Source of the DNA: Polytrichum commune
Lineage: Eukaryota > Streptophyta > Polytrichopsida > Polytrichales > Polytrichaceae
Direction: 5' to 3'
DNA: 64,000 bases
NCBI GenBank assembly: GCA_950295325.1
Contig: OX485808.1
Location: forward strand, 36,290,527-36,354,526
In this document: piece after piece, positions 45,052-64,000 of the stretch
How positions within the stretch are numbered: the first letter of the stretch is position 1
Layout: every line of letters starts with the position of its first letter
The notes under the pieces: model-generated
Told to the model about the DNA's origin: nothing
Seen by the model: the letters and a program-made list of their open reading frames with translations, nothing else
Databases searched by the model: none
Position numbers and translations under genes: made by a program

Positions 45052-46836
45052 ATGATACAAAGTGTGGAAGGTCTTCATGTGGCTGGATCACATTGTAATT
45101 ATGATATGATTACAAGTTTGGATATGGCAAACATAAGGCTCTTGGATATCAATGATTGTAAGAATTTGGATTATTTTTACAAAACAATGAAAAGTGCGAG
45201 TATATTGAGGTGGATGCGGATAAGCATGAGGTTTAGCCGATATAAAGGAGAAAAAATCGAAGAGCTGCAACCATCATTTTTCATTCCATTCAAACAATTG
45301 TGTGTGTTGGAGATGGAGAGGTTTGTGCATTTGCAACAATTTCCACTTGGGATTGGAACCCTTAGGATGTTACAATACCTTACCTTTATTCATTGTAACG
45401 CATTGGAATTCATACCGGAGACATTGAGCAATTTGACTTCATTGATGATGTTGGACCTGCATGGTTGCTCAAGCTTGAAGAAATTACCGGAGACATTGGG
45501 GAACTTGACTTCATTGGTGACATTGGACTTGCATGGTTGCTCGAGCTTGAAGGAATTACCGGAGACATACGGAACCTTGACTTCATTGGTTACATGGAAC
45601 TTGGGATGGTGCAAGAGCTTGAAGGAAGTACCGGAGACTTTGGGCAAGTTGACTTCTTTGATGACATTGTACTTGAATGATTGCTCGAGCTTAAAGGAAA
45701 TACCGGAGACGTTGGGCAACTTGATTTCATTGGTGACATTGGACTTGGGTGATTGCTTCAGTTTGAAGGAAGTACCTGAGACATTGGGCAACTTGACTTC
45801 ATTGGTGACATTGAAATTGAGTGGTTGCTCGAGCTTGAACGAAGTACCGGAGACATTGGGCAACTTGACTTCATTGGTGACATTGGATTTGAGTGGTTGC
45901 TCAAGCTTGAAGGAATTACCACAGACATTCGGCAACTTGACTTCAATAGTTACATTGAACTTGCGTTCTTGCTCGAGCTTGAAGAAAGTACCGGAGACAT
46001 TGGGCAACTTGACTTCATTGGTGACATTATACTTGCACAGTTGCTGGAGCTTGAAGGAATTACCGGAGACATTTGGCAACTTGACTTCATTGGTGAGATT
46101 GTACTTGAGTGGTTGCTGGAGCTTGAAGGAATTACCAGAGACATTCGACAACTTGACTTCATTGGTGACATTGGTATTGAGTGGTTGCTCGAGCTTGAAG
46201 GAATTACCAGAGACATTGGGTACCTTGACTTCATTGGTGACATTGGACTTGCGTGGTTGCTTGAGCTTGAAGGAAGTACCTGAGACTTTCGGCAACTTGA
46301 CTTCATTGGTTACATTGAACTTGAGTGATTGCTTGAGTTTGAAGGAAGTACCAGAGGCATTGGGCAAGTTGACTTCATTGGTGACATTGGATTTGAGTGG
46401 TTGCTCGAGCTTGAAGGAAATACCACAGACATTCGGCAACTTGACTTCATTGGTGACATTGGACTTGCGTGGTTGCTCGAGCTTGAAGGAAGTACCAGAG
46501 ACATTGGGCAACTTGACTTCATTGGTGGAATTGAGCTTGAGTCGTTGCTGGAGCTTGAAGGAATTACCAGAGACATTGGGCAACTTGACTTCATTGGTGA
46601 CATTAGACTTGAGTGGTTGTTTGAGCTTGAAGGAAGTACCGAAGACATTGGGCAACTTGACTTCATTGGTGACATTGGACTTGACTGATTGCTTGAGTTT
46701 GAAGGAAGTACCAGAGACATTGGGCTACTTGACTTCATTGGTGACATTGGACTTGACTGATTGCTTAATTGAGCTTGAAGGAAATACCAGAGACATTGGG
46801 CTACTTGACTTCATTGGTGACATTGGACTTGAGTGA
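45052..46836 (+). CDS. Kinase-NB-ARC-LRR protein, LRR exon
   Basis: Starts after acceptor GATGCAG (45050-45051), phase 0. It has a linker of about 100 residues and then tandem 24-residue leucine-rich repeats from about 45361 (72-bp unit). The consensus is LTSLVTLDLSGCSSLK followed by E-x-P-E-T-L-G-N. Nineteen complete units precede a break in the twentieth. The repeats are very similar at the nucleotide level, so several other frames, including a 421-codon antisense frame, are also open by chance. A 4-bp insertion near 46766-46770 shifts the frame. The product then ends at TAG/TGA-type stop 46834-46836 after about 20 aberrant residues. Whether this shortened LRR still works is unknown. Confidence 0.8.
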   Translation: MIQSVEGLHVAGSHCNYDMITSLDMANIRLLDINDCKNLDYFYKTMKSASILRWMRISMRFSRYKGEKIEELQPSFFIPFKQLCVLEMERFVHLQQFPLGIGTLRMLQYLTFIHCNALEFIPETLSNLTSLMMLDLHGCSSLKKLPETLGNLTSLVTLDLHGCSSLKELPETYGTLTSLVTWNLGWCKSLKEVPETLGKLTSLMTLYLNDCSSLKEIPETLGNLISLVTLDLGDCFSLKEVPETLGNLTSLVTLKLSGCSSLNEVPETLGNLTSLVTLDLSGCSSLKELPQTFGNLTSIVTLNLRSCSSLKKVPETLGNLTSLVTLYLHSCWSLKELPETFGNLTSLVRLYLSGCWSLKELPETFDNLTSLVTLVLSGCSSLKELPETLGTLTSLVTLDLRGCLSLKEVPETFGNLTSLVTLNLSDCLSLKEVPEALGKLTSLVTLDLSGCSSLKEIPQTFGNLTSLVTLDLRGCSSLKEVPETLGNLTSLVELSLSRCWSLKELPETLGNLTSLVTLDLSGCLSLKEVPKTLGNLTSLVTLDLTDCLSLKEVPETLGYLTSLVTLDLTDCLIELEGNTRDIGLLDFIGDIGLE

Positions 46837-47400
46837 TTGCTTGAGCTTGAAGGAGGTACCAAAGACATTGGGCAACTAGACTTCATTGTTGACATTTGAA
46901 TTGGATGGTTGCTTGGGCTTGATGAAAGTACCGGAGACATTGGGCAACTTGACTTCATTGGTGACATTCGCTTTGAGTTGTTACTCAGGCTTGAAAAAAG
47001 TCGCCGAGACACTGGGCAACTTGACTTCATTGGTGACATTGGACTTTAGTGGTTGCTTGAGCTTGAAGGAAGTCCCGGAGACATTGGGCAACTTGACTTC
47101 ATTAGTGACATTGTCCTTGAGTGGTTGCTCGATCTTGAAGAAAATACCGAGATATTCGGCAACTTGACTTCATTTGTAACGTGGGACTTGAGTGGTTGCT
47201 CAAGCTCAAAGGAATTACCGGAGACATTCGGCATCTTGACTTCATTGGTAACGTTGGTCTTGAGTGATTGCTCGAGCTTGAAGGAATTACCGGAGACATG
47301 GGCAACTTGACTTCATTGGTAACATTGTTCTTGAGTTGTTGCCAAGTGGTTTGGACTTTAAATTATCTTCAACACTTTGACATTGAAATAAGAGCATGTC
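46771..47400 (+). pseudogene. Decayed 3' end of the LRR array
   Basis: About seven further 24-residue LRR units continue in other frames after the 4-bp insertion. In the shifted frame there is a nonsense TAG at 46877-46879 where other units have TTG. One-base deletions occur near 47149 (ATACCGAGATATTC instead of ATACCGGAGACATTC) and near 47299 (GACATGGGC instead of GACATTGGGC). After the last unit the frame reads LFLSCCQVVWTL and runs out near 47430. These defects cluster in the last 600 bases, while the preceding 5 kb of coding sequence is clean. Confidence 0.75.
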
Positions 47401-49908
47401 AAAATGAGAATGACTTTGAAGTGGAAATTTGATTGTTGATTATGTTATTGAATGGAACTATGTCTTGTGTTAATTTTGATAATGGCCATGAGCATTTAAA
47501 TAGACAAACTAACTACCAAAAGGGCGAGCAAGATCGATGGTAAAGTCTGAGATTCAATGATGATCACCACAAGACTATGGCCATCACCATGTGAGACAAT
47601 TCACTCAAAGAAAGTGAAGGCTAATTGCCGAGGGAAAAAGACAATAGCCTGGTGAAGGATGTAGAGTTGATATCCAATAGGCAAGTGATTAATTGAGGAC
47701 TCATGAGTTTAGTAAAGGCTAATAGTCTATGGCAAAGGGCCAATAGAGTGGAGATTGAGAGTGAGTTTGAGTGACGCTAGTGATTGGTAAAGTTAAGTTG
47801 CATGAAAAAATACTTGGTAGTTGAAAAGAGTGTGAGATAGAGAAGTGGCGAGATTAAGCTATTAGGCAATAATATGAGAGTAAGACGCTTAGCCAGAGAG
47901 AGGTAAATGAAGGCAATTAGTCAGGAGGAAGCGATTGCTTATTGAGAGGAGAAGAAGTCAAGGCGCTCGAGAAAGGCCATAGCTTGCAAAGCAAGGAAAT
48001 CACCAAGTGTGAAGCAGGAGAGGAATATCCCGATATAGGCACTTAGAAGTTGAAGAGTCAATGAAGACTAAGAAAGCAATTAGCCTGAGTAAAAGACAAA
48101 ATGACCTAGGGACTCGATAAGAAAACTAGAGTCGCGAGAGGAAGAACCGGCTAGGCCATAGGCTTCACATGTGTCTCCACCATGTGAGAAAGAATGCAGA
48201 AAGTCAACTCTGAGAGAATATAGCATGGAAGCAACTACTTGACTTTGCTTGGTATAAGGCTAATGGTATGAATGCAAGCAATGGACATACTTAGTAGTAG
48301 GCTATAAGCTGCAACAGACAATACCATCCTAAGCATGAGAAATTGCTTGATTAAAGTAAAACTTTACAAAAGGCAATTCAATTTGAGACTAAAGTAGTCT
48401 AAGGCTTTAATTAATGAATATAGCCTATTTGTTGATGCATTGATTCTTGTGTAATCTTGTGGATAATTGTTGTGAAAAGGTACCAAAGTGCCAAAAATGA
48501 AGATGGTGAGTACAGTCTTGGAAGAATGCCCGAATGACTGTAAGTTCAATTAAGAGGATTTAAATTTGAGAATATTGCAAAGCATAATTCATGACATTTA
48601 CAGACAATGTGGTATTCAAAGACATTACCCTGGACTTTGTCTTGACAATTTGCCAAATTATTGAGCTTTACGGCTGATTAGGGGATGGAATTAGAGTAAT
48701 AGAAGTCCACATGCACCTAGGATGGAAATCACACACGACCAGGAAAACACAAGAAATCATAAGAGTAGAGATCAAGCTTGATAAAGAAGGAGTGAAGGGA
48801 TGAAAAGACTCATATTGTCATTCTAATCCTTCATCCAATGTAACATTAACCTTCATAGACACTAGCTTAGTCTTCCCTATGATCCAGTACCTTGGGTTGT
48901 TTTTGTTTGAGTATTTGAGTGATAGCAAAAACCTAATTACAATGACCCATCATTTTCGAAGAATCTATGGAATATACCTCAACTCAATAAAGAACAAACC
49001 GAAAGATCAATGTGGTACTTTTGGGCCACCCCCTTTCGAGGGAGCCTAAAAGTATCACACAAGCCCTTCGGTGAAGGTGGCCTGCATTTGCAGGCGCCCA
49101 AGCCGAACCCGGATGATAGGTATATAACGTGAGTAGTTAGATTTTTAAGGGAGATTAAATATGCGTCGTAGTACCTCCGGAGGTTAGGCCTTAGTTTTTT
49201 ACTAGTGTGGCTTTAAACTCCACTAACCAATTTCATATCTAGTTCTAACCTTAACCTACAACCTATTCTACGCGCAGACGCACCAGCCTTGAAACCAAGG
49301 CAATCCTAATTTGTGAATTGGGATGGTTCTGATACACCCAACCGGGTGTGACTCATACCACCCTAACTCAACGAACGGAATAACGACAATTTGATGGACC
49401 ATTCAATTCTTCCTATTTCTTTATTTAGTTCTATTTAGTTTTCTAAGCGGGGGAACTTGGCCTAAGTCCCACCCTTCACACAAATTCCTTCTTAATTACT
49501 TACTTTTGTTTGCACGTCCTAACTTACTACATTAACATATTAGGCATCACCCCTTACCTCGGGTCTCTTGCCAACAAGGGTTTACGATTTATTTTGTATG
49601 TTTTGATTGTTAAATGTGTTTACACTGGATAGACCACGAAATGCAACTTAATGGGACCAGGGTGACGGGCGACCTGTAGGTTCAACCTGTTGCGTAATCT
49701 TCATAAATTAGGGCCATTACTCCCAATCTATGGGGCCAACAACATAATAGTGGATTCGCGGGTCATTAACCCCACCTTTCCACCAACAACATTCAGAGTG
49801 GTCGTGTCGGTGATTAATCCGACTTACCACACACGAAACTTGCTAATAAATGAAGCTACTACCACAAAACATACCAAGGGCCCCGAAAACAATGGAATTG
49901 GGTACTCC
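47401..49908. other. No recognised gene
   Basis: 47500-48250 is purine-rich with many GAG/AAG words but no clear period. 48900-49900 is less AT-rich, with words such as CACCCAACCGGGTGTG, and might be an old LTR-type element, but no TG...CA ends or coding motifs were found. Confidence 0.4.
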
Positions 49909-49971
49909 CTTGGCGGTCAAGTGGTTAAGCCACTTGACCTTACGAGATAGGTGAGTGGGTTTAGAGATGCG
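49909..49971 (+). other. Possible tRNA-derived SINE head
   Basis: CTTGGCGGTCAAGTGGTTAA resembles the D-arm/A-box of a Leu/Ser-type tRNA. It is followed by CTTGACCTTACGAGATAGGT and a GTGGGTTTAGAGATGC segment at the place of the T-arm/B-box, degenerate against GGTTCGAATCC. No acceptor stem pairs, so it is not a functional tRNA. Confidence 0.3.
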
Positions 49972-50279
49972 TACCTTAGCCGTGCTCCCTCCGATCCTAA
50001 ATGGAAGGCTTAAGGTTAGTTAATTTACCTCAATTTTCCTCGGTTGATTTGGGCTTGATGTAGGCCGAGCCGCTACCTCCTTCCTTGCTCCACTTTCCGA
50101 GCGTCGACCTTGCCTCCTTCTTTGTAACTAGTTTGGTAGTAAGCGTACCTTAGTTAACAATTAAAATATAAAGTGTTATTCTGCCCTGTAATTTAATCCT
50201 AAGCATAATTTTTATACTTAGTGCACCAAATTATCTTTCCAATGATCTAAAAATCACTCTAATCGGATAAGAAATGCAA

Positions 50280-51000
50280 AAGTTATGAGGGTTGGAAGTG
50301 TGAGGTCGATTCAACCGACCCTTCCAACCCACCTATCTACCTTCTAACTTCAAAAATTCATAGCACATTCCTTACTACTTGGATCTAGGCTTTCCTTATA
50401 CCATTGGAAAGCTATGAACAAGCTCTAACTAGAAAAAATTATGACATCAGCAGGTTAAGCTAATAGAAATTCAGCGGACTCCTTGTAACACAGCAGTCAA
50501 TCAAGAAGGCTTAAACTATGTATCTCGCCTTCAACAATTCATATCTAATTCAAATCTTAGTCAAATCAAACGTTCTATATGACCCTGGAGAGATATTAAA
50601 AAGATGTATTTGATAAAAATATGTGATTAGAAAGGTAAGCCGAAGTGAACCCAGCAGGTCCTCTGTAATGCAGCAGTCAACCAAAAGTTCTCAAACTATG
50701 TGTCCCATCTTGCACAATTCATATCTAATTCAAATCATGCTCAAATCAAATGTTCTAAGCCATTTTGGAAAGCTACACAAAAGTTCTACTTGGAAAAAAA
50801 ATAACTTCTTGGAATTAAAATTCCTATTGGGCTCGCAGGTCTGATCCAGCAGCCGCTACCCACAAGACCACCCAGTTTTTCTACTCCATCTTTGAAAATT
50901 CATAACTAATTGTCATCTTAACCAAATCACAAATGGGAAACGGATATGGATAGCTATAGGAAATCTCTCTAAGAGAAAAATGATAAGTATCTTTTCCTAG
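50280..51000. repeat. Imperfect tandem repeat, about 170-190-bp unit
   Basis: The set of words CAGCAGTCAAxCAA, AACTATGTxTC, AATTCATATCTAATTCAAAT and a CAAATCAAA-x-GTTCTA block recurs at about 50491 and 50672. A more diverged copy starts near 50840. Confidence 0.6.
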
Positions 51001-51931
51001 CTTCTGAACTAAGCCTTCAGGGCATTGGCAGATGAGGTCTATAATGCCTCTACTCAAAACTCTACCATCCAACCTACCTCTTACAAAAGAAGGAATAATT
51101 TTGTTGGTGTGTTAATAAACACACAACCTAACTAGGAGAGAGAGAGTAGAGGAGGTTCTCAAGCCTTTCTTTTAGACCATTGAGAATACATGCTAAAGGA
51201 TTTTTTCCTAACTACATTGAAGCAGGGCTTCGCCCAAAAACTAGAGAAAGAGAGAGAGCTACAAGGTGGAAGGAGGGGTTTTTAAACCCTCTCACAAAAG
51301 GGTTGGACCCCTCCTCCACGGGATCCATTTTTCAAACCCTTTCCCAAAATTTTGGCTCGGGGGTTTTCCCGGTTGAGGTTGCCACCCTCTCGCCGAGGTG
51401 GCTCCGACAAAAAACCTTTAGAAATCTTTCTAATTTTTCCGCCATCGAGTTGGCAAGGGGGCAAGTGGGCAAGTATCCCCCTTGCTCTCTTTCTTTTTTG
51501 TCTTCAAAATTCTTCACGCCGATTTTATCTTCTTACGTAAAACACCTCCAATAGCCTTGTGTGCCTCACACTAACTAATAAACTAACACTTGCTTAGCTA
51601 GCATCTACTAACAATTGCTTAATAGCTAGCATCTACTAATATTTGCTTAGCTAGTTGTTTTTACTAGCTAGCACATTTTTTCTACTTTGCTATCTTCTAC
51701 CACTACTTAGTTTCATTTTGACCTTCCTTCTTCTAGGCTAAATGCTAAATGAACTAATTTTTCCTAAATTCCCTATCAATTCTAACTTTTAATGCTAACA
51801 TTCTAACTAAAAGTGATCCCGCAGAGTGGTGGACCACTCAAAGGGTTCACAATCAACACATGTAATTGGTTGGACTTGGAAACACTAGAATTTTGACCGA
51901 AATAATCTCCCCGGACACTGATTTGTATGTA
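51001..51931. other. No recognised gene; short repeats
   Basis: The ORF at 51180-51554 has no known domain and a basic, low-complexity start. 51590-51675 has repeats of GCTTAGCTAGCATCTACTA. About 51862-51915 is a fragment related to the inverted-repeat element at 29880-30500. Confidence 0.45.
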
Positions 51932-52700
51932 CAGTCTAACCTCGATAATGTCACACCATCCGTTTCACCAAAAAGAGTGATATAAACAAGGTGTGACATA
52001 TTTGATAATGTCACATTTTGAAGATTTGTGCATAATGTGATATTATCAAAAAAATAGGTAGAAAATCAAAATAAAATTACAATGTAAAAAAGAAAATAAT
52101 AAATACGAGACTTCAATGTTTTTGAATGTAAAATCTAATTCAAAATTGTGAATAACAACAAGAGTACATCATAATGTGTCATTGAGATCAGATAAAGACC
52201 TCTCACTAGAGACAAAGAAGCTTCTAATGTCACATTGTTTTGTTGATGTGAAATGTGCAACACCAATTCTAATGAGTTTGTCATGGATTTTTTCCATTCC
52301 TAACAACTCCAGAGTGTTGAAAATCTGAGAACCTTGGCTAGCCATAAAATTCAAAACATTTTTAGCATATTTTTGTGCATTGCTTAGCTTCACTACTTTA
52401 GACTCATCATCACTGCTATCAACAATCAATGGGTCTACTTCCATGGAATCAAGAACCTGTTCGCCATCTTGCACTAATTGCACAAGCTCCTCAGTAGAAT
52501 ATTCCACCTCAAAATCATCTTCACCTTCCATGTTTATGTACTCCAAAGGACAAAGCTTTTCTACAGGCTTGCCTTCGACATCCAAACCCAAATTCAATGC
52601 GGCGATGAGATTGCCCAATTCCAAAGTTGCTTCCTCCATTTTGGACTTCATACGTTCATCAAAATTGTTGATATTTGCATTCGGGCATTGCTAGGGCATG
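51932..52700 (-). pseudogene. pogo/Tigger transposase C-terminal fragment with terminal repeat
   Basis: Minus-strand ORF 52651-52169 (160 codons). It reads LEYINMEGEDDFEVEY, STEELVQLVQD, then VKLSNAQKYAKNVLNF and STKQCDIRSFF. That is an acidic stretch, an 'EE(I/L)V..V' segment and the terminal helix of Tigger/pogo-type transposases after the DDE domain. Downstream of its stop, the terminal repeat CAGTCTAACCTCGATAATGT begins at 51932, preceded by TA. It matches the end of the fragment at 7905-8550. The upstream frame stays open to about 52690 (after a possible acceptor CTAG), where the 7-bp repeat begins. The catalytic and DNA-binding parts are missing. Confidence 0.7.
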
Positions 52701-52728
52701 AGCGTAGAGCGTAGAGCGTAGAGCGTAG
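52700..52728. repeat. 7-bp tandem repeat (GAGCGTA)4
   Basis: Four perfect copies at the point where homology to the pogo-type element ends. Confidence 0.9.
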
Positions 52729-53019
52729 ATTTTCTGAATTTCGAGCGGAGAGATTTTATTTTTAGTAATAAAATTTCCAAAAATAAAATTTATTATTATT
52801 ATAAATAGTATATTCCTCAAAATATTCGATTTTTTTAATCCTTATGGCCGTGGAATTTAGTACCCATAACCGTGCAAAATGGATTTGACATATGGAAAAA
52901 ATTTATATGTGACCGAGTTTTGGAGGAAATAGATGACTTCATTGAAGAGAACTACAAGGACACATGTTCACGGAAGAGCACAAGTGAAGGACAAGTACAA
53001 GTGATTCATAAATTTAACA

Positions 53020-53122
53020 TAGCAAAAATAAAAATAAAAATAAAAATAAAAATATATATATATTTATTTATTTATTTATATTTATTTATATTTATATTTA
53101 TTTATTTATATTTATATATACG
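53020..53122. repeat. AT microsatellite
   Basis: (AAAAAT)n passes into (TATTTA)n. No coding content. Confidence 0.85.
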
Positions 53123-53218
53123 TATTCATTAAATTGTGAAATTACATAGAGTGACGTGTGTCATACACGTTTATGAAAAATAACATATATATGAGACTAA
53201 TAAATAACTCTGATTACT

Positions 53219-54682
53219 CTAAACTGTAGCATGGGCTAAGATCCCCCTTTCAAGAAATTTTTTCACCTCCAAGAAACTGAGGGTAGGCGCATGCATGAAG
53301 AGGTCATGGTCGGCCTCTAGTTTGCAGACTTGTACGTAGAGATAGTAAAGATGCTTACAAGGTCGGAATGGACACCCGCGTCTACCCAACTTAGCCATTG
53401 TCTCTTTGAACGCCGGGCAATTGCAGTCTGGGTAGGCACTGATTGAGAGATGGTAAACTAACTCCGTGGGAGCTGGTTTAGATTGCAAAGTTACAACGCA
53501 TCCAAAACCGGGTTGAGGTATCATTACTACCTTCAGAATACTTGCCTTCATTGCTATAGCGGAATCAATGTTCTGCATGTGCTTCGAACTGGCACAAGTG
53601 ATTGAGCGGCGCATGTTCTTTGACTTTCGTGTTTTAGGATAAACGTCCGCATTATCTGGCATTGGAACCTGTGACAGATCCGGTGGCGGTGCTGAACTGT
53701 TGAACGTGCGACTCACATGAACGCTTTGCTTTTGGGGAAGTTGAAATCCCGCATTCTCCAACGCCTCAATCTCGGAACGTGTGAGATTGGTCCCTATCTT
53801 CACAGGCCAAACCGACGGGATGGGAGGTCGTTCCTCGTAATCCGAAAATGGCTCTATCCATCGTCGACGATACCCCTTCACACACCTCTCAATATCGTCA
53901 GCACAGAAAAAAAACTGCTCCACCACCTTCTGGTTACCTTTTTGAGGGTGGGTCCAAAGGCCAGTGTATGTGGGAGCTGGTGTGCTCTTCCCGTTTTGGA
54001 CGATACGGGATGTACATTTTTTTCGAGTGACAACCATCTGCGCCCAACAAGCCTTCGCAGAAACCTTATTAAGTCGGGCAATGTGCCATAGCTTCTCATT
54101 CACACGAGTCTCCTCCATGGCCGTCACCCGTCCAATATCTATGCCAGTTGAGGCAGGGGGCTGTGCTGGGCGTTCCACTTCCACTTGAACTTCCTCCTGG
54201 ATGGTACTCAAATTTTGAGCACGAGCACGTGTCACCCTCCGACCCACTCGAGGACGTGAAAAATTAACAGTGTCTGGCCTATGAGTTTCTTCTTCGGCGC
54301 CAAGGGGAAGATCCGGCTTTCGTTTCCTCGACCCAAAAACCTCAGCTCCTTCGAGGTGTGCGTCTCGAGTACAAAAATCTTCGGCTCCGGGCATGTTCAA
54401 GACGGCTGCGTTCAGGGTAGTCGGATCCCCGGTTCGGTGAGCTGTGCGTTGGGCTGTCCGAAGTCGAAGTTCTTCTCTCGAGGGTCCAGAGCCTCCCGCT
54501 CCACCTTTGAGGTATTGATAGTACCCCACCACTTGCAGGAATGCTCTAACGTAATTGTCGACGGCTGCCACGTAGAGATCGCCACCCCTATTGCCGGACG
54601 CTTGCAACCATTTGTTGTGAACGGTCTCAGCAAGGTTGCAAGAGGGCATTTCAGCTAGTTCATCCGGAGAATATTTCTTCTC
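53219..54682 (-). pseudogene. MULE-like transposase, second exon (SWIM zinc finger)
   Basis: Begins after acceptor TACAG (in frame with the first exon, phase 0) as EKKYSPDELAEMPSCNLAET. It runs to a stop at 53219-53221 without interruption. Contents: a conserved opening (SCNLAETVHNKWLQASGN), a basic low-complexity linker with a KRK cluster that could be a nuclear signal, a middle domain, and near the C-terminus the SWIM-type zinc finger CNC....C....CKH (positions 409-433 when counted from the internal Met at 54649). SWIM fingers follow the DDE domain in MULE and FAR1-type transposases. The exon itself is intact; the gene is called broken because of the stop in the first exon. Confidence 0.75.
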
Positions 54683-54952
54683 CTGTACGAAGGCAACTGG
54701 TTAGAAAATGTTCGGAAACTCAATTCAGCAAGGAGAAGTCGTGGTGGGCCATGCCTGCTGCAACGCATGGATCCCCTAAAAATAGATATATTTTTCAGAA
54801 GAAGTTGTTGAGACACTGAAATAAATCTCAATGATGAAAACATAAAATTTAAAAGCTAAAGATTTGATATTGTTTAGATACTACATTAGACGCAGAGATA
54901 AGAGTGCAAACTTAAAGAATTAAAAAAATTGAATGAAAAAGTGCATACTTAC

Positions 54953-56764
54953 CAGTTCCATGAATCCACCCCACTGCCTATATCGGAAATGCCAAAACGC
55001 TAGCCAATGGTTCAAATGGTGGAGGCCAGCATCAGAGGTCGCACCCGAAGATGTCCACCAGGCTTTGATTGCCAAGTAACGTGTTTCAGCCTCTGCCACA
55101 GACCGTGCATCTTTGTACTGCATACATAATTTCTTGTGTTGATCTTGCAATTCGTGCACGATGTATTGTTTGGTGTGTTTTTCTAGGGATTGCGCCCAAT
55201 GGAAATAACACGTTCGCTTGTAGCCTTCCATGGGTATCTTTGGGTCTCCGGATCCGTAGATGATGCGCACAGCGTTCCAATTGGCTTGCGCACTATCAGC
55301 CATGAAACCTTTGAACTGGGGCTTGTGTATTCCATGCCTACCCATGACATGGTTAAGGTTCTTCCAGAAAACGAGTTGAGCATCTTTGTCCTCAGACTGG
55401 AAATCACAGCAAGCAATGGTGAGTACACGTTGGTAAGAGGAGTCGTACACGTGGCAGGCCATGGTGGTCCAGTTGGCAACTCGTTTGACGTGGTCAAACA
55501 TCATCCAGGAGTGCTCTAAATCGCCACTAGGTTGCATTCGGCGGACAAGGTCAACACCACTGCCAGGTCCCACCTCGGACATCTTGAATATGAAGACCTT
55601 GTCGGAGTCGTCACCTTGGCCTGGAAACATGTTTCGTTGCACGTAGGCCCAGTTGCTCAGCCCTCTGAGCTTAGTGATGCCATCAAGAACGCCATATCTG
55701 CGCAAATACTTAAAACTGTAGACACGGTTTTTTAAGTTAGGGGAATTGAGCTCCTTGTAGCATTGGAAGATAGGCTCTAGCTATTCTAGAGAAAATAAGG
55801 TGGGAGGGTCGTCTTCTTCACGGAGCAAGACGTTACCTAAAACATCCTTGCTAGTTTCCAAGACTATTTTGGAAATGGTAGCCTGCGGGTTGCGCTCAAC
55901 ATGTTGTTCGATAAAATCGTCGATTATCTTCCGCGTGCCCCTATAGCCTCCTACCTTGACAGGATGCTTATGGTTGCCTACATGGACGCAAGCACGCTCT
56001 TGCGTATCATCTCCAAAAATGTAAAAGATTTTTGCATCACAAGAGGCTACACAAACAGGAGGTTCTTTACAGATCTTACAGACTAATGCTGAAGTTGGAG
56101 GTGGAGCGTCTGCAACAGGGAAGGCATCTTTGGAAGAACCTTCAAACTCGACCTCGTTCACTCCATATGCGCGTTCAGGCCGCTGCAGAAACCCACATTT
56201 GGGATTGTGGCATTGAAGATGACCTACACAGTTAGACGACCGGAATGACAACCCCAGCGTGTTACTGATGTTAGTAGTCATAGTCTTTGTCCATATATGG
56301 CCATCGTAACGTTTGTCCATACCTTCCATAGATTTAGCATTCTTATGGACTGCAGATGGAAGGGTGGGAGGAAGAATGAAGATTACATCCCCATTGAACG
56401 ACGGTGGCAGGAAATCTACGCTCTCAGTACAGATGGAATCATAATTCAGTTTCTTAAGAATTGACTTGCTTCCAGGCATACTACCTAGGGAACGAAGGGA
56501 GGGAAGAATGTTTATCAGTTTTGTAGTTTGCGAAGGTATAAGGAAAGGAGTAGTCCTACGTGAATCTTGAGAAGAGGAGGGAGATGGACGCTTAGCACTA
56601 GACCGGATTGATGGATGGGAAGGCCTCCCCTCATCATCAGAAGAATCGGACAAATCGATGCTAACGCGGAGACCTGGCTCGATCTTGACACGAGATAGTA
56701 AGGGGGCTTCAGTGCACAGTGTAGAGGAACTGCGAGGAGTGAAGAGGACTGTAGTAGCGTTCAT
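54953..56764 (-). pseudogene. MULE-like transposase, first exon (zinc domain and DDE core), one in-frame TAG
   Basis: Open from at least the Met at 56764 (upstream codons stay open and coding-like, VWKLKPGKYRVFGL, up to the repeat array at 56838) to a donor CTG|GTAAGT at 54953/54952. A single TAG at 55781-55783 interrupts a frame that is otherwise continuous (LFSLE-stop-LEPIFQCYKELN). Domains: Ser-rich acidic N-terminus; a GCM/WRKY-like zinc domain (GHIWTKTM, GHLQCHNPKCGF, CKICKEPPVC, CVHVGNHKHPV); then the transposase core with MMFDHVKRVANWTTMACHVY, FKGFMADSAQANWNAV and TCYFHWAQSLEKH, the usual MULE pattern of D, D and C..H. A 60-base intron ending just after the TAG would also restore the frame but is shorter than normal for plants. 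Paired divergently with the gene at 60766 across the repeat array. Confidence 0.75.
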
Positions 56765-56837
56765 GGACTCTGACAAGCCAAAGACGCGATACTTTCCGGG
56801 CTTGAGTTTCCAAACGCGAGCATTATTGTCTAACGCA

Positions 56838-59800
56838 TTTGTGCGCCGATGATGAGCTTTGGACTTTGAGGCAGGATAGGGTATATAGTTTGATTTTCGG
56901 CAGTTTGCTTTAGGAAAATGGGTGACCCCCGCGTTGGCGCAGGGGTTCTTTCTGCCTTGATGAATTTGTGCGCCGATGATGAGCTTTGGACTTTGAGGCA
57001 GGATAGGGTATATAGTTTGATTTTCTGCAGTTTGCTTTAGGAAATTGGGTGACCCCTGTGTTGGTGCAGGGGTCCTTTCTGCCTTGATGAATTTGTGCGC
57101 CGATGATGAGCTTCTGGCTCTGCGGCAGGATAGGGTATATAGTTTGATTTTCGGCAGTTTGCTTTAGGAAATTGGGTGACCCCTGCATTGGCGCAGGGGT
57201 CCTTTCTACCTTGATGAATTTGTGCGCCGATGATAAGCTTCTGGCTCTGAGGCAGATTAGGGTATATAGTTTGATTTTTTGCAGTTTGCTTTAGGAAATT
57301 GGGTGACCCCTGCGTTGCCGCAGGGATCCTTTCTGCCTTGATGAATTTGTGCGCCGATGATGAGCTTCTGGCTCTGACGGAGGATAGGGTATATAGTTTG
57401 ATTTTCTGCAGTTTGCTTTAGGAAATTGGGTGACCCCTGCGTTGGCGCAGGGGTCCTTTCTGCCTTGATGAATTTGTGCGCCGATGATAAGCTTGTGGTT
57501 CAGAGGCAGGTTAGGGTATATAGTTTGATTTTTTGCAGTTTGCTTTAGGAAATTGGGTGACCCCTGCGTTGGCGCAGGGGTCCTTTCTGCCTTGATGAAT
57601 TTGTGCGCCGATGATAAGCTTGTGGTTCAGAGGCAGGTTAGGGTATATAGTTTGATTTTTTGCAGTTTGCTTTAGGAAATTGGGTGACCCCCGCGTTGGC
57701 GCAGGGGTTCTTTCTGCCTTGATGAATTTGTGCGCCGATGATGAGCTTTGGACTTTGAGGTAGGATAGGGTATATAGTTTGATTTTCTGCAGTTTGATAT
57801 AGGAAATTGGGTGACCCCTGCGTTGCCGCAAGGGTCCTTTCTACCTTGATGAATTTGTGCGCCGATGATGAGCTTCTGGCTCTGAGGCAGGATAGGATAT
57901 ATAGTTTGATTTTCGGCAGTTTGCTTTAGGAAATTGGGTGACCCCTGCATTGGCGCAGGGGTCCTTTCTACCTTGATGAATTTGTGTGCCGATGATGAGC
58001 TTCTGGGTCTGCGGCAGGATAGGGTATATAGTTTGATTTTCTGCAATTTGATTTAGGAAAATGGGTGACCCCTGCGTTGGCGCAGGGGTCCTTTCTACCT
58101 TGATGAATTTGTGCGCCGATGATGAGCTTCTGGCTCTGAGGCAGGATAGGGTATATAGTTTGATTTTCGGCAGTTTGCTTTAGGAAAATGGGTGACCCCC
58201 GCGTTGGCGCAGGGGTTCTTTCTGCCTTGATGAATTTGTGCGCCGATGATGAGCTTTGGACTTTGAGGTAGGATAGGGTATATAGTTTGATTTTCTACAG
58301 TTTGATATAGGAAATTGGGTGACCCCTGCGTTGCCGCAAGGGTCCTTTCTACCTTGATGAATTTGTGCGCCGATGATGAGCTTCTGGCTCTGAGGCAGGA
58401 TAGGGTATATAGTTTGATTTTCGGCAGTTTGCTTTAGGAAAATGGGTGACCCCCGCGTTGGCGCAGGGGTTCTTTCTGCCTTGATGAATTTGTGCGCCGA
58501 TGATGAGCTTTGGACTTTGAGGCAGGATAGGGTATATAGTTTGATTTTCTGCAGTTTGATATAGGAAATTGGGTGACCCCTGCGTTGCCGCAGGGGTCCT
58601 TTCTGCCTTGATGAATTTGTGCGCCGATGATGAGCTTCTGGCTCTGAGGCAGGATAGGGTATATAGTTTGATTTTTTGCAGTTTGCTTTAGGAAAATGGG
58701 TGACCCCTGCATTGCCGCAGGGGTTCTTTCTGCCTTGATGAATTTGTGCGCCGATGATGAGCTTCTGGATCTGAGGCAGGATAGGATATATAGTTTGATT
58801 TTCGGCAGTTTGCTTTAGGAAATTGGGTGACCCCTGCATTGGCGCAGGGGTCCTTTCTACCTTGATGAATTTGTGTGCCGATGATGAGCTTCTGGGTCTG
58901 CGGTAGGATAGGGTATATAGTTTGATTTTTTGTAGTTTGCTTTAGGAAAATGGGTGACCCCTGCATTGCCGCAGGGGTTCTTTCTGCCTTGATGAATTTG
59001 TGCGCCGATGATGAGCTTCTGGATCTGAGGCAGGATAGGATATATAGTTTGATTTTCGGCAGTTTGCTTTAGGAAATTGGGTGACCCCTGCATTGGCGCA
59101 GGGGTCCTTTCTACCTTGATGAATTTGTGTGCCGATGATGAGCTTCTGGGTCTGCGGCAGGATAGGGTATATAGTTTGATTTTCTGCAATTTGATTTAGG
59201 AAAATGGGTGACCCCTGCGTTGGCGCAGGGGTCCTTTCTACCTTGATGAATTTGTGCGCCGATGATGAGCTTCTGGCTCTGAGGCAGGATAGGGTATATA
59301 GTTTGATTTTCGGCAGTTTGCTTTAGGAAAATGGGTGACCCCCGCGTTGGCGCAGGGGTTCTTTCTGCCTTGATGAATTTGTGCGCCGATGATGAGCTTT
59401 GGACTTTGAGGCAGGATAGGGTATATAGTTTGATTTTCTGCAGTTTGATATAGGAAATTGGGTGACCCCTGCGTTGCCGCAGGGGTCCTTTCTGCCTTGA
59501 TGAATTTGTGCGCCGATGATGAGCTTCTGGCTCTGAGGCAGGATAGGGTATATAGTTTGATTTTTTGCAGTTTGCTTTAGGAAAATGGGTGACCCCTGCA
59601 TTGCCGCAGGGGTTCTTTCTGCCTTGATGAATTTGTGCGCCGATGATGAGCTTCTGGATCTGAGGCAGGATAGGATATATAGTTTGATTTTCGGCAGTTT
59701 GCTTTAGGAAATTGGGGACCCCTGCATTGGCGCAGGGGTCCTTTCTACCTTGATGAATTTGTGTGCCGATGATGAGCTTCTGGCTCTGCGGCAGGATAGG

Positions 59801-60499
59801 GTATATAGTTTGATTTTCTGCAATTTGATTTAGGAAAATGGGTGACCCCTGCGTTGGCGCAGGGGTCCTTTCTACCTTGATGAATTTGTGCGCCGATGAT
59901 GAGCTTCTGGCTCTGAGGCAGGATAGGGTATATAGTTTGATTTTTGGCAGTTTGCTTTAGGAAAATGGGTTACCCCTGCGTTGGCGCAGGAGTCCTTTCT
60001 TCCTTGATGAATTTGTGCGCCGATGATGAGCTTCTGGCTCTGAGGCAGGATAGGGTATATAGTTTGATTTTCTGAAGTTTGCTTTAGGAAAATGGGTGAC
60101 CCCTGCGTTGGCGCAGGGGTCCTTTCTGCCTTGATGAATTTGTGCGCCGATGATGAGCTTGTGGTTCAGAGGGAGGTTAGGGTATATAGTTTGATTTTTT
60201 GCAGTTCGCTTTAGGAAATTGGGTTACCCCTGCGTTGGCGCAGGGGTCCTTTCTTCCTTGATGAATTTGTGGGCCGATGATGAGCTTCTGGTTCTGAGGC
60301 AGGATAGGGTATATAGTTTGATTTTAGGCAGTTTGCTTTAGGAAAATGGGTGACCCCTGCGTTGGCGCAGGGGTCCTTTCTGCCTTGATGAATTTGTGCG
60401 CCGATGATGAGCTTGTGGTTGAGAGGCATGATAGGGTATATAGTTTGATTTTTTGCAGTTTGCTTTATGAAATTGAATGACCCCAGGGGTCCTTTCTGC
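56838..60499. repeat. 127-bp tandem repeat array, about 29 units
   Basis: GTGCGCCGATGATGAGCTT restarts at 56841, 56968, 57095, 57222 and 57349, a strict 127-base period that holds to about 60480. Most units carry GACCCCTGCG, a 4-base loop (usually TTGG), and CGCAGGGGTC, a perfect 10-bp-stem hairpin. Each also carries GGGTATATAGTTTGATTTT with a TATATA core that reads on both strands. The last unit lacks the hairpin loop. Since 127 is one more than a multiple of three, reading frames rotate from unit to unit and create many spurious ORFs. A block of variants at 58434-58712 recurs at 59323-59601, exactly seven units (889 bases) away, indicating unequal exchange. Confidence 0.92.
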
Positions 60500-60765
60500 T
60501 ATAGGTTATATGAGTATTTTTTTGTCATGTGATGATGGCCTATTTATTCTAATCCATATTCATTTTTTTTTTGTAGGTTTCTTCATAGAGAGTACATGGA
60601 GTCGAGTACAACAGTTACTTGTCCGAGATGCTTAGTGGTTTCAACATTGTCTTAGCTAGTCGTCGTTTAGTCATAGGTTTATTTGCTATAACTTAGCTAG
60701 TCGTCGTTTATAGTACTTCATATTTTTTTCCTAAGTGTATTGTGTTTCATTTACCTACCTTCCAG
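60500..60765 (+). promoter_or_regulatory. Leader between the array and the ParB-like gene
   Basis: Contains TTTTTTTGTAG|GTTTC (about 60577) and CTACCTTCCAG|ATG (60751-60766), both acceptor-like, so the transcript may start within the array and be spliced into the coding exon. A 19-base direct repeat (CTTAGCTAGTCGTCGTTTA) lies at about 60651 and 60694. Promoter activity is inference. Confidence 0.35.
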
Positions 60766-62262
60766 ATGACATTATCCGATGTTCCCGTACCCGAGCAAGT
60801 CCCACCTCCCTCGATAGATTCCTTGGAGGAGGATTGTGGCATTCCCCCTCAACATTCTTCAATCCTAGATGTTGCCGACTTGGAGGAGGATGTCCCATCC
60901 TCCGATCAACATGCTGCCGATACCACACAAGAGGCCACCCAAGAAGCCGATACCATACAAGAGGCCATCCAAGAAACGCCCGATTCAAGCGACAAACGCT
61001 CGTCAAATCCCTTACGTCCTCCTGGTGGTGTTGAACTTGGCATTGTTCACATGCCCCCTCATCTGCAGGACAAGGACCCCATGTGGAGCGCAAATGAGAT
61101 GAGATTGCTGCAGAAGAGTGACTACAATACTGTCATCTCCAATCTTCGCACCAAACCCATTAAGAAGTCTCGATTCCTTATTCCTCTTTGCCGTCTCAAG
61201 ACCTACCCGAAGGTGCGTCCAATTGTCGATTCCGACGTCGAGATGTTGGCGAACGAGTTCATCAAAGGGTATCGAGAAGGAGATCGAGTTTTGTATGTGT
61301 CTCCTTTCGACATCACGGACAAGGACCTAGCGGTTCGAGAGGATGACGCCATCTGGTCTAACCCACTACGGAAGTCTGCTAATAATGAGTTCGAATAGTA
61401 CTTGTCGTCTGATCCTTATCTCCATCAGTTTCGGAACAAATACTTTTATGTCTACGAAGGTAATCACCGCGTGACGGCTTGGATGGGTTACATCTACAAA
61501 TACCATTCCAATAATCCTGACTGGTACATTTCGGTTGACTGTATTGTTCTCGACGCACGTGGGCAATGCTCAATGCTTCTCAACGCCATGAACGACATAA
61601 ACTGGTAAGTATACTTGTAAATCCATTTCCATTAATTTCATATTCCATTTACCCATGGAAGCCTTGTTTTAATACTCATATCTTCATTCACAGGTCGACG
61701 GAACATGATCATGTTCAAGACAATACTATTGCCAAGTTGCAAAGAATTCGAACCTTCGGCTCCTTCAAACTTTCTGATTTCAAAGGTCTTATTAGCAAAG
61801 AGGACATGGCTATTTGCGAGGCTTATAAACCCCGTCTACCGTCATGGTATCCACTCACAATGGACATTTTTGTTAAATTCCTCCACGCGGTAAGTTTTCT
61901 AAAGTTATGTGCTTATCGTTTTCATATTATGAAGTGCATCATGCGTTTCTTGCATCTTAATTATTGTCGTACAGAGACAATGCGCTGCTGCATCCGACGC
62001 TGCTTGCTCGAACTATTACGAGACTGTGCCCGAGAATGAGAGGACTGGGCCTGGAGTCTGGATGTCTACATGAGTCTACATGAGTCCTCCTACTTCGTTC
62101 GCCTTACCTTCATATGCCGAACGTATAGCACAAGAATTCATACGCGCCCCATCTCCAATCCTTTCAGATTTTCCACGTCAACTTTTCAACCCTACAGTGC
62201 TTAGATTCATGGATGTCGAGGCTGATCAATGTGACGAGAGTTTCGATGTTGGTTCACCTTGA
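60766..62262 (+). pseudogene. ParB/sulfiredoxin-fold-like protein gene, three exons, two in-frame stops
   Basis: Exons 60766-61604, 61694-61889 and 61975-62262 are joined at good sites (CTG|GTAAGT...CACAG; GCG|GTAAGT...TACAG), restoring one frame of about 440 codons. The N-terminus is acidic with a QEA-rich repeat (residues 54-70). Residues 136-180 read RFLIPLCRLKTYPKVRPIVD, then VEMLANEFIKG. About 40 residues later comes YFYVYEGNHRVTAW. This spacing matches ParB-type domains (IP...L..NP..R......V..LA..I..G ... GHHR..A). The second exon has FGSFKLSDFKGLISKEDMAI. Two in-frame stops occur: TAG 61396-61398 (after NEFE) and TGA 62071-62073 (after VWMST). Coding-like sequence continues past both. 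The start is the ATG directly after the acceptor. Fold assignment is by motif only. It diverges from the MULE-like gene and may be its accessory. Confidence 0.6.
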
Positions 62263-64000
62263 TCAAGACTATCCATATGTTTGTTTCTGGTTTGTTACGT
62301 GCATAATGTAGCCATTTCTTTTTAAAATAAAACATCTACAAGTTTCTTTGTGTCATAACTATTGTAGACTTGTCAAAGAAGTTCAAAGAAGTTGAAGTTT
62401 GAAAGTTTGAGTTATGCCATTTGCACTGAAATGCATGTGCACGCTTCTAACTCGAACACTGAATTGACTCTATCTAACAAAACTTTGTCATATCTAGTGA
62501 CATTTGGGAGATGTTACTAGATGGAACTCCCAATTTTTAATACATACATGAATTTTTCTCGCCATCATATTTGTTGCTTCACAATTGCTCCTTTGTTTGT
62601 TTTGAATAAGTCTATGGCTTAGAATAGGTGTCTACAACACCCTTGCTTCAAATATTTATGTTAAATTGCTCAAGCCTCCAATAATTTATATTCCAACGCC
62701 CAATCCTTCCTTTCAGATTTGCTAACACATTGATATTTTCACTCCATGCTCTTTGCACTCCTAGGTTACCAATTCCCTTGAATTGTCATGAATAGGTGTC
62801 TCTACCTTAGAGGGTGTATAAACCAACACTCGAGAGGGCTTAGCCGATTTAGATCAACGGTATAAATGATTGGCTTAGCAAATTGACCTAGATTTATGGG
62901 TTGCTCGACCCAACTCTCGACGCAACCTCCAAACCTAACCTCCAATAACATGTAGTGATGTAAGCATCCACATCAAAGTTGGGACATAGGACTTAGGACC
63001 CCACGTGAAGTAATAAGTCCCAATTTTTATCCTTTCAACAACTAAGTTTGCACATATTGACCTTAAGTGAACTAAGACTTGGGACCCCTTTTGAACCAAC
63101 CCTTAGTGAACCGCCCTCGTTCACATCGACTTAAAGTGCCGAATTTATTTTTCTTTTCTTTCTTTATTCCCCGGCCCAAGGAAGATGGTGGTCCACCAAA
63201 TTGTCCTATTAGTGTGGGTTACCATTTGGGGTTACGTATTGCTAGAACTTTTTACCGACATTATTATATTTTAACTAACTAGATTACATCATATTCTTCA
63301 GTGTGCGTACTAAATACTTGTGTCATTTGGGTAAAAAATTATACTCTCTGTAAAATATTATAGCAATGCGTAACTGCAAACAATAACCCCCACTAATTAG
63401 GCAAAATAGCGTAGTAAATATCATAAGCCTTGTAGTTGAATTTTAACATTGGCTAGGCATTTTTAAAATTTAAGATCATGACTGGTCATCTCTAGATTCC
63501 GCCTATAAGAAGATAGAGCAATATTACTTTATAAGTTATCCATAAATCAGAATAAGGAAAACTTATTTGGAAATCAACGTCTAGAATTTGACAATGACTT
63601 AGTTGAAGAATGAGGTAAGTAAACCTAATTTGGTTACTTATCTTGATTGAAAATAATTATGTTTAAATGGTCTTTGGTTAAGTGTGTATCCAAGAATGGA
63701 CACCAAGAAGACACGTGTTTGATAGATTTGGAAGAAAGGCATAATGTTCCTCAATAAACCACACAATGTTTAATACTCTCAAACAATATTCTTTACTAAA
63801 ATTGTCGGCACTACCCTCTCCACTGAGATTCTAGATTGAGGGGACCTACCTACATGACCGATTAACAAACACAAGAATATTCACTTGTTGGATTGTATAA
63901 ACTTTGCCATTTAAATTATTGTTTCAAGGATGCCAGCCCTAATTACGCCCTTAGCCTTAAACACTGAAATAAATTTGTTAATTAATTAAAACACAATTTC
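62263..64000. other. No recognised gene
   Basis: AT-rich. No terminal repeat matching the 53-kb side was found, so the outer limit of the two-gene element is undefined. A fragment CTCTACCTTAGAGGGTG near 62806 resembles the ends of the 13872-14168 element. The ORF at 63079-63282 shows no domain. Confidence 0.45.

Follow-up and report, generated by a model that had tools for sequence, protein, structure and literature searches.

A broken two-gene DNA transposon of Polytrichum commune belongs to a family in which palindrome arrays match a ParB-like, methyltransferase-like partner gene

Our analysis of a 64,000-nucleotide stretch of the Polytrichum commune genome (assembly GCA_950295325.1, contig OX485808.1, here C6; C6:36290527-36354526, hereafter the window) identifies one copy, no longer intact, of an abundant family of large two-gene DNA transposons flanked by 9-bp target site duplications (TSDs). 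One gene encodes a transposase; the other is predicted to combine a ParB/sulfiredoxin-fold domain, a middle region and a beta-class DNA-methyltransferase-like domain. The tandem array between the two genes carries palindromes of 22-24 bp, whose type is specific to the subfamily of the second gene and not to the transposase. From sequence comparison with copies in the whole genome searched (408 Mb, 64 contigs) we regard as fairly probable an element-specific, parS-like targeting by the second gene's protein, which would act as a self-targeting anti-silencing or self-marking factor.

The array in the window (56837-60484) consists of a 127-bp unit in 28.7 copies with 92% matches, as had been described by a model that saw the letters of the window only (hereafter the sequence-only reading). 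It holds 28 sites of the palindrome type GACCCCTGCG-N4-CGCAGGGGTC at up to 4 mismatches, and no palindromes were found in window 1-52600. In a scan of the upstream regions of 26 copies, the A and A' types carried GACCCCTGCG-N4-CGCAGGGGTC, the B types GAGGCCTCGGATCCGAGGCCTC, the C types CACCCTCTCGGTTCCGAGAGGGTG and the '270' types AATCCCACGGATCCGTGGGATT, the last in arrays of 64-bp units. Three loci (L008, L009, L051) had imperfect palindrome forms only. At up to 4 mismatches the palindrome of the own subfamily was present in 22 of the 26 regions and that of another subfamily in none (0/26), and shuffled sequences likewise gave none. A centre CGG-WT-CCG is common to the B, C and 270 palindromes and missing from the A palindrome. 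Exact palindromes amounted genome-wide to 1903 for B, 103 for A and, for C, 789 on the forward and 652 on the reverse strand, with reversed controls at 0. The C-type loci L049 (C1:36374500) and L057 (C1:16457500) carry further palindromes within intron 4 of the second gene, and a second palindrome type, CCCACGGGTGAACACCCGTGGG, has four sites at up to 4 mismatches in one B-type intergenic region (L017, C3:55745500-55755499, with L018). An A'-type array at C2:69440179-69452708 extends over more than 12 kb between both genes, its sites often about 169 bp apart among the matches listed.

As far as sequences can tell, palindrome and second gene vary in step while the transposase is conserved. The transposase cores of four 270-type loci are 94-96% identical to that of the window. 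In the 270-type locus on C2, 1,385 bp on the transposase side align with the A type at 94.6% identity and blastn finds no match on the side of the second gene, and the 270-type copy at C1:53996401 has A-type ends. Because near-identical transposases carry very different array-plus-partner cassettes, palindrome and second gene appear to have been exchanged jointly; such a swap between nearly the same transposases is the product expected of self-recognition.

Could the palindromes instead serve the transposase? They might act as an internal enhancer for the transposase or transpososome, the second gene helping only in strand transfer or transposase expression, roles that have been proposed for mudrB. 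The location of the array directly upstream of the transposase would suit such an arrangement, and so would element ends with GAGCGTA repeats of their own. We nevertheless consider it quite improbable, for the palindrome type tracks the second gene, two different palindromes accompany transposase-side DNA that is 94.6% identical, and C-type elements have further palindromes within a second-gene intron. We give even less credence to arrays that are passive tandem repeats, expanding by slippage and sharing their history with the second gene by adjacency only. It is true that array length is highly variable, exceeding 12 kb in the A'-type array on C2, that adjacent segments are exchanged as blocks and that adjacency alone could keep array and second gene together, which counts against a functional interpretation. 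Adjacency by itself, however, would not explain the consistent type matching in the 22 copies with sites. Moreover, one B element shows repeat periods of 96, 127 and 307 bp with a single conserved palindrome throughout, and the subfamilies have different palindromes of similar size, three of them with the CGG-WT-CCG centre.

That the two genes and the array move as one element, as the sequence-only reading had supposed, is borne out by shared ends, TSDs and linkage across copies; other copies with both genes, the array, element ends and TSDs were found. The transposase core exon (window 54920-55780, minus strand; DHVKR...ADSAQANWNAVR...CYFHW) gave 136 scored genomic matches of 1821 candidates. 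The ParB-like exon as query gave 150 scored of 947, and a divergent relative as query 150 of 1352, of which 37 were taken as new. Among the matches listed for both genes, 78 of the 136 transposases have a ParB-like gene within 20 kb, 77 of these 78 being divergent to the nearest one. Within 40 kb the number rises to 96 of 136 (90 divergent, 3 tandem, 3 otherwise); with the first ParB-query list alone it is 92 of 136 in any orientation and 87 of 136 divergent. In 500 random placements of the ParB-like loci, by comparison, the number of transposases with such a locus within 40 kb in any orientation averaged 4.1 and never exceeded 12. On C1, convergent end motifs within 40 kb enclose 11 of the 24 transposases scored. 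Eight of these 11 have a ParB-like gene from the first query and a ninth, at C1:39904401, has one from the divergent-relative query, while two are without a listed one. Even in the D-type element at C7, whose transposase is 41-47% identical, the transposase gene is still divergent to its own ParB-like gene. In the window, too, both genes are transcribed away from the array, as previously read: the transposase lies on the minus strand, and the second gene runs on the plus strand from an ATG at 60766. A single-copy, syntenic host gene was rejected as an identity for the ParB-like gene, which is multi-copy (150 scored of 947; 150 of 1352) and travels with the transposase.

Delimited by comparison with other copies, the window element measures 11,597 bp. 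It starts at window position 52682 and stops at C6:36354804, which would be window position 64278 and lies 278 bp outside the window; the limits of 53219-62262 proposed earlier were too small. Both ends are flanked by an identical 9-bp TSD, ATTTGCATT (9/9), on the left at 52673-52681 and after the right end at C6:36354805-36354813. The left terminal sequence (52682-52760, plus strand) contains GAGCGTA repeats and resembles a terminal inverted repeat; GCATGAGCGTAGAGCG recurs in inverted orientation at the right end, in L043. The right non-coding part (62263-64000, plus strand) matches the C3 copy at 98.7%, its right end and TSD lying beyond the window, in L043. A left end near 52683 with the GAGCGTA-repeat end motif is common to the compared copies, and the end type of the window element was also found in L014 and L029. 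A 19-base form of the end motif has 416 forward and 412 reverse genomic matches at up to 1 mismatch, tandem repeats of the motif being counted more than once, and its reversed control has 0 and 1. Six of ten other end pairs showed a perfect 9-bp duplication and the remaining four showed none. The GC content in 500-base windows is 0.39-0.54 over 53250-62250 and 0.24-0.40 over 51750-53249. Outside the element (49000-51750) it is 0.35-0.45, and inside it (62250-64000) 0.30-0.42. The GC enrichment noted earlier for both genes is thus a real contrast but not a marker of element limits. Two B-type copies, at C3:55745500 and C2:54221500 (L017-L020), are about 99.5% identical over the aligned stretches. 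Ten copies have one and the same transposase core score of 536.1 bits, which together with the near-identical B-type copies suggests recent mobility.

The transposase of the window is itself damaged. Its N-terminal part (55781-56835, minus strand) is short of roughly 78 initial codons, the match to L014 on C3, and likewise to L015, ending at 56835 where the array starts, and a stop codon separates the transposase open reading frames (ORFs) at 55780/55781. The C-terminal exon (53219-54700, minus strand) is an ORF with homologous exons in L017 and L080 and no Pfam hit; a SWIM-like C-x-C...C-x-H motif was read by eye in the transposases of the window, L017 and L080. Among the relatives listed for the window transposase, L014 (C3:57641818-57645675) is closest; it is without a match to window 53034-54829, which includes the C-terminal exon, and its core ORF is open despite the missing exon. 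Elements of the MuDR superfamily (Mutator-like elements, MULEs) make TSDs of 8-10 bp, usually 9 bp, and their transposases have a SWIM-type CxC...CxH motif after the catalytic core. Hmmscan of the transposase returned no transposase family, with one sub-threshold FERM_M hit at 0.01 and none for the core pieces, and its profile had 0 hits against the PDB. None of the 136 transposase places was among the PF10551 rows listed (150 scored of 271 candidates), and PF10551 matches lie elsewhere in the genome. The MULE label, which draws on TSD length, ends and motifs only, is tentative.

The second gene is best seen in relatives. In L018 (C3:55755500) it can be read as 1041 uninterrupted codons in ten exons, the introns between them being of GT-AG type. 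Exon-wise tblastn at 16 loci recovered all ten exons in eight of them, from several subfamilies, and exons 1-9 in three D-type loci; the remaining five either ran into the end of the stretch or were partial (exon 1 only in L050, several exons missing in L056). Exon 1 of the window copy (60766-61604, plus strand) contains the ParB/sulfiredoxin-like domain with a YEGNHR motif and an in-frame TAG at 61396-61398. Exon 2 follows at 61694-61889 (plus strand), with splice sites read from the sequence and homologous exons found in relatives by tblastn, and sequence comparison places the 5' part of exon 3 at 61975-62062 (plus strand). There the gene is interrupted: 3,242 bp present in the C3:57649 copy (L003+L022) are deleted, with the join at 62062/62071 (junction 62063-62070, plus strand), and next comes a remnant of the last exon (62071-62262, plus strand), which matches the last exon of L003+L022. 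Because this deletion removed them, the window copy has no methyltransferase-like exons, and the C-terminal half of the protein was missed from the window alone. The same junction occurs in L004, so the shortened form exists in at least two places. Both genes had been called similarly decayed and otherwise open; decay there is, but "otherwise open" was too generous in view of the lost 5' codons, the stops and the 3,242-bp deletion. In simple estimates of the ratio of non-synonymous to synonymous substitution rates (dN/dS), for which six pairs were saturated at silent sites, the ParB exon gave 0.09 and 0.17 in two pairs and the methyltransferase exons 0.14 in one pair.

A ParB/sulfiredoxin-like signature had been read in the window, and structural modelling supports such a fold. 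The AlphaFold model of the ParB exon from 32 sequences, modelled on the B-subfamily relative L018, had a mean predicted local distance difference test score (pLDDT) of 73.5 and a predicted template modelling score of 0.69. Its first 20 Foldseek hits were sulfiredoxins, Noc, ParB and PadC. In VIA-align 2, 22 of 30 rows were ParB-family or sulfiredoxin by title, six were SerK/SbnI, which we take to share the fold, and two were uncharacterised proteins. A first, poor model (pLDDT 53) had already given 13 of 13 ParB-family or sulfiredoxin rows. Noc 7ol9 was best (Z 8.3, 94 aligned, root-mean-square deviation 2.6), followed by ParB 7bm8 (Z 8.0; 92, 2.2), KorB 8qa9 (Z 7.3; 91, 2.6) and Arabidopsis sulfiredoxin 6ky4 (Z 6.5; 88, 3.6), where VIA re-examines Foldseek's own list and a Z under or near 8 can mean merely a common arrangement. 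We assign the fold because the VIA rows agree among themselves. The nucleotide-binding motif of the ParB/sulfiredoxin superfamily, G-x-[HR]-R, is present as EGNHR: among the 32 sequences K43, S44, R45, G141 and H143 are invariant, and R144 occurs in at least 90%. When the ParB exons of 12 members were compared with Pfam, one matched DUF6551 at 0.0013 and one Exo70_C at 0.02. Pieces of the window gave a Cas3 hit at 0.18, below threshold, and nothing else, and the whole spliced protein matched no family. The PDB profile search with the ParB exon had one unrelated hit at 0.69. Viral contigs held no relatives for either domain alignment, and phages none for the ParB exon.

The C-terminal domain shows similarity, in a profile built from five spliced copies, to M1.HpyAVI (PDB 5hfj) at 7.9e-5 over the SAM (S-adenosylmethionine)-binding end, and four of five members match PF01555, the beta-class DNA methyltransferases (best E 2.5e-5). 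The motif order is permuted, the catalytic-motif region coming first and SAM motif I last, in a REK...D-x5-G...E.D pattern. Motif I reads DWQCGTGAS, DWQCGVGGS, DWSPSTGAS or DAYASTGAS in the aligned copies, where 5hfj has DPFMGSGTT; in the decayed copy L051, N replaces its D. Canonical beta-class motif IV is [DNS]PP[YFW]. In the family the site reads D[IVAL]P[ED] (DIPE, DAPE, DVPD, DLPE) in 12 of the 13 copies read and YIPE in L057, so that [DNS]PP[YFW] is found in 0 of 13, the aromatic residue and the first proline being absent from all of them. The alteration is old and kept, because it is common to subfamilies whose domains are 40-53% identical. In view of motif IV we class the domain as methyltransferase-like and not as an active enzyme. 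It probably keeps SAM binding, motif I being retained, and it may be a pseudo-enzyme or have a changed chemistry, the catalytic motif being strongly altered.

An active N4-cytosine or N6-adenine DNA methyltransferase, delivered to the arrays by the ParB-like domain and leaving a bacterial-type mark that host silencing would not read, is accordingly a possibility that we hold to be unlikely. It would accommodate the retained motif I (DWQCGTGAS) and acidic SAM site, the matches to PF01555 and M1.HpyAVI and the dN/dS of 0.14 in the one pair; epigenetic self-modification has also been proposed for a ParB-methyltransferase protein by the authors of the Ectocarpus work (PMC12477816). The altered motif IV speaks against it, since neither the first proline nor the aromatic residue of [DNS]PP[YFW] is present in any of the 13 copies.

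Returning to element-specific targeting, the DNA-binding accessory acting on the repeats that the sequence-only reading had envisaged survives, since partner-specific palindromes are the trace that such an accessory would be expected to leave. The protein of the second gene would bind as a dimer to its own element's palindromes, load on the array, which would act like a parS cluster, and spread or recruit from there. The divergent promoters would thereby stay active or marked despite host silencing. By analogy with VANC in VANDAL elements, the role is probably directed against silencing. Only tentatively do we entertain a wider reading, and it is doubtful as a whole: a eukaryotic transposon-borne parS-like system with a ParB fold and a catalytically altered methyltransferase, in which nucleotide-gated spreading would keep the own element open, the palindromes recognised would have variable arms around a near-constant centre, and lineages would diversify by swaps of array-plus-ParB cassettes onto a conserved transposase.

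Several observations weigh against this line of interpretation. Four of the 26 upstream regions (L050 and three D-type loci) have no palindrome type at up to 4 mismatches, the D-type 360-bp units show imperfect palindromes only, read by eye, and the palindrome types were defined in the same loci where they were later counted. Among the matches listed, 40 of the 136 transposases have no ParB-like gene within 40 kb, though a transposase moving without that gene was not demonstrated, and six of the 96 partnered ones are not divergent to the nearest. The matches that Foldseek gave have weak E-values, 0.032 at best, the PF01555 member shown reaches 22.2 bits where the cut-off is 26.7, and motif IV, non-canonical in 13 of 13 copies, speaks against an ordinary active enzyme. 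Finally, two pairs of recent copies have a dN/dS of about 1.

The family shares features with several known systems. Like bacterial ParB-parS and Noc-NBS, it pairs a ParB/sulfiredoxin fold with clustered palindromic sites. Bacterial ParB, however, has GERR where this family has G-N-H-R, and in this family no ParA partner was seen and no DNA-binding helix-turn-helix was identified. With the beta-class methyltransferases (PF01555, M1.HpyAVI 5hfj) it shares permuted order and motif I but not the catalytic motif, here D[IVAL]P[ED] or YIPE. MuDR (mudrA/mudrB) is likewise a two-gene element with a 9-bp TSD, but its genes are convergent whereas those of this family are divergent, and mudrB is, as far as we know, unrelated to the second gene described here. 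To our knowledge VANC has no known ParB or methyltransferase domain. The VANDAL elements of Arabidopsis nevertheless offer a plant transposon with an accessory protein and element-specific targets in tandem repeats, introns included. The report on VANC describes family-specific short targets in non-coding tandem repeats, including introns, that vary between related elements (PMC5735166). Its motifs are 8-9 bp long and in one orientation (PMC5735166), in contrast to the palindromes of 22-24 bp found here.

The closest published parallel is Sola1-1_Ec32 of Ectocarpus, a 21.5-kb DNA transposon in which a 1104-aa product with ParB-like and N4C/N6A-type methyltransferase parts lies opposite the transposase; according to the portion of the paper available to us, such proteins were suggested to bind and modify their own transposon (PMC12477816). 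In both systems a single product combines a ParB-like with a methyltransferase-like domain, and its gene lies divergent to that of the transposase inside a large DNA transposon. Sola1-1_Ec32 differs in its brown algal host and Sola transposase, and no palindrome array or catalytic-motif change is described in that portion. The earlier statement that no MULE partner with a ParB-like fold had been described may hold for MULEs, but a ParB-methyltransferase of an Ectocarpus transposon has been published (PMC12477816). ParB-methyltransferase accessory genes in algal transposons (Ectocarpus Sola1) are therefore already known. Among the open-licence papers listed in our searches we found no land-plant ParB-methyltransferase transposon, and PMC6446971 contained no moss, GCM or accessory terms. 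New against that literature are the land-plant host, the element with a 9-bp TSD, the co-segregating palindromes, the cassette exchange and the altered motif IV.

In the genome as a whole, PF02309 gave two neighbouring Aux/IAA-domain matches, taken as one locus, which would suit a land plant with few Aux/IAA genes, probably a bryophyte. Two further features were noted in the window. A minus-strand ORF of 173 codons (52169-52690), with no Pfam match at E up to 1, abuts the left end of the element, and a 72-bp repeat in 26.8 copies (45413-47342) appears by eye to code for leucine-rich repeats, as in plant resistance-type genes.

With near-identical and so recently mobile copies, the family offers a plant system in which sequence alone allows each type of protein to be paired with its type of palindrome, and in which the code of a transposon's self-recognition may be legible in the DNA. 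Our results bear on the role of ParB-methyltransferase accessory proteins in eukaryotic transposons and on whether self-targeted anti-silencing, known from VANC, had an independent origin that made use of bacterial parts. That the catalytic motif is conserved yet non-canonical prompts the question whether the domain is a pseudo-enzyme or has a new activity on DNA.

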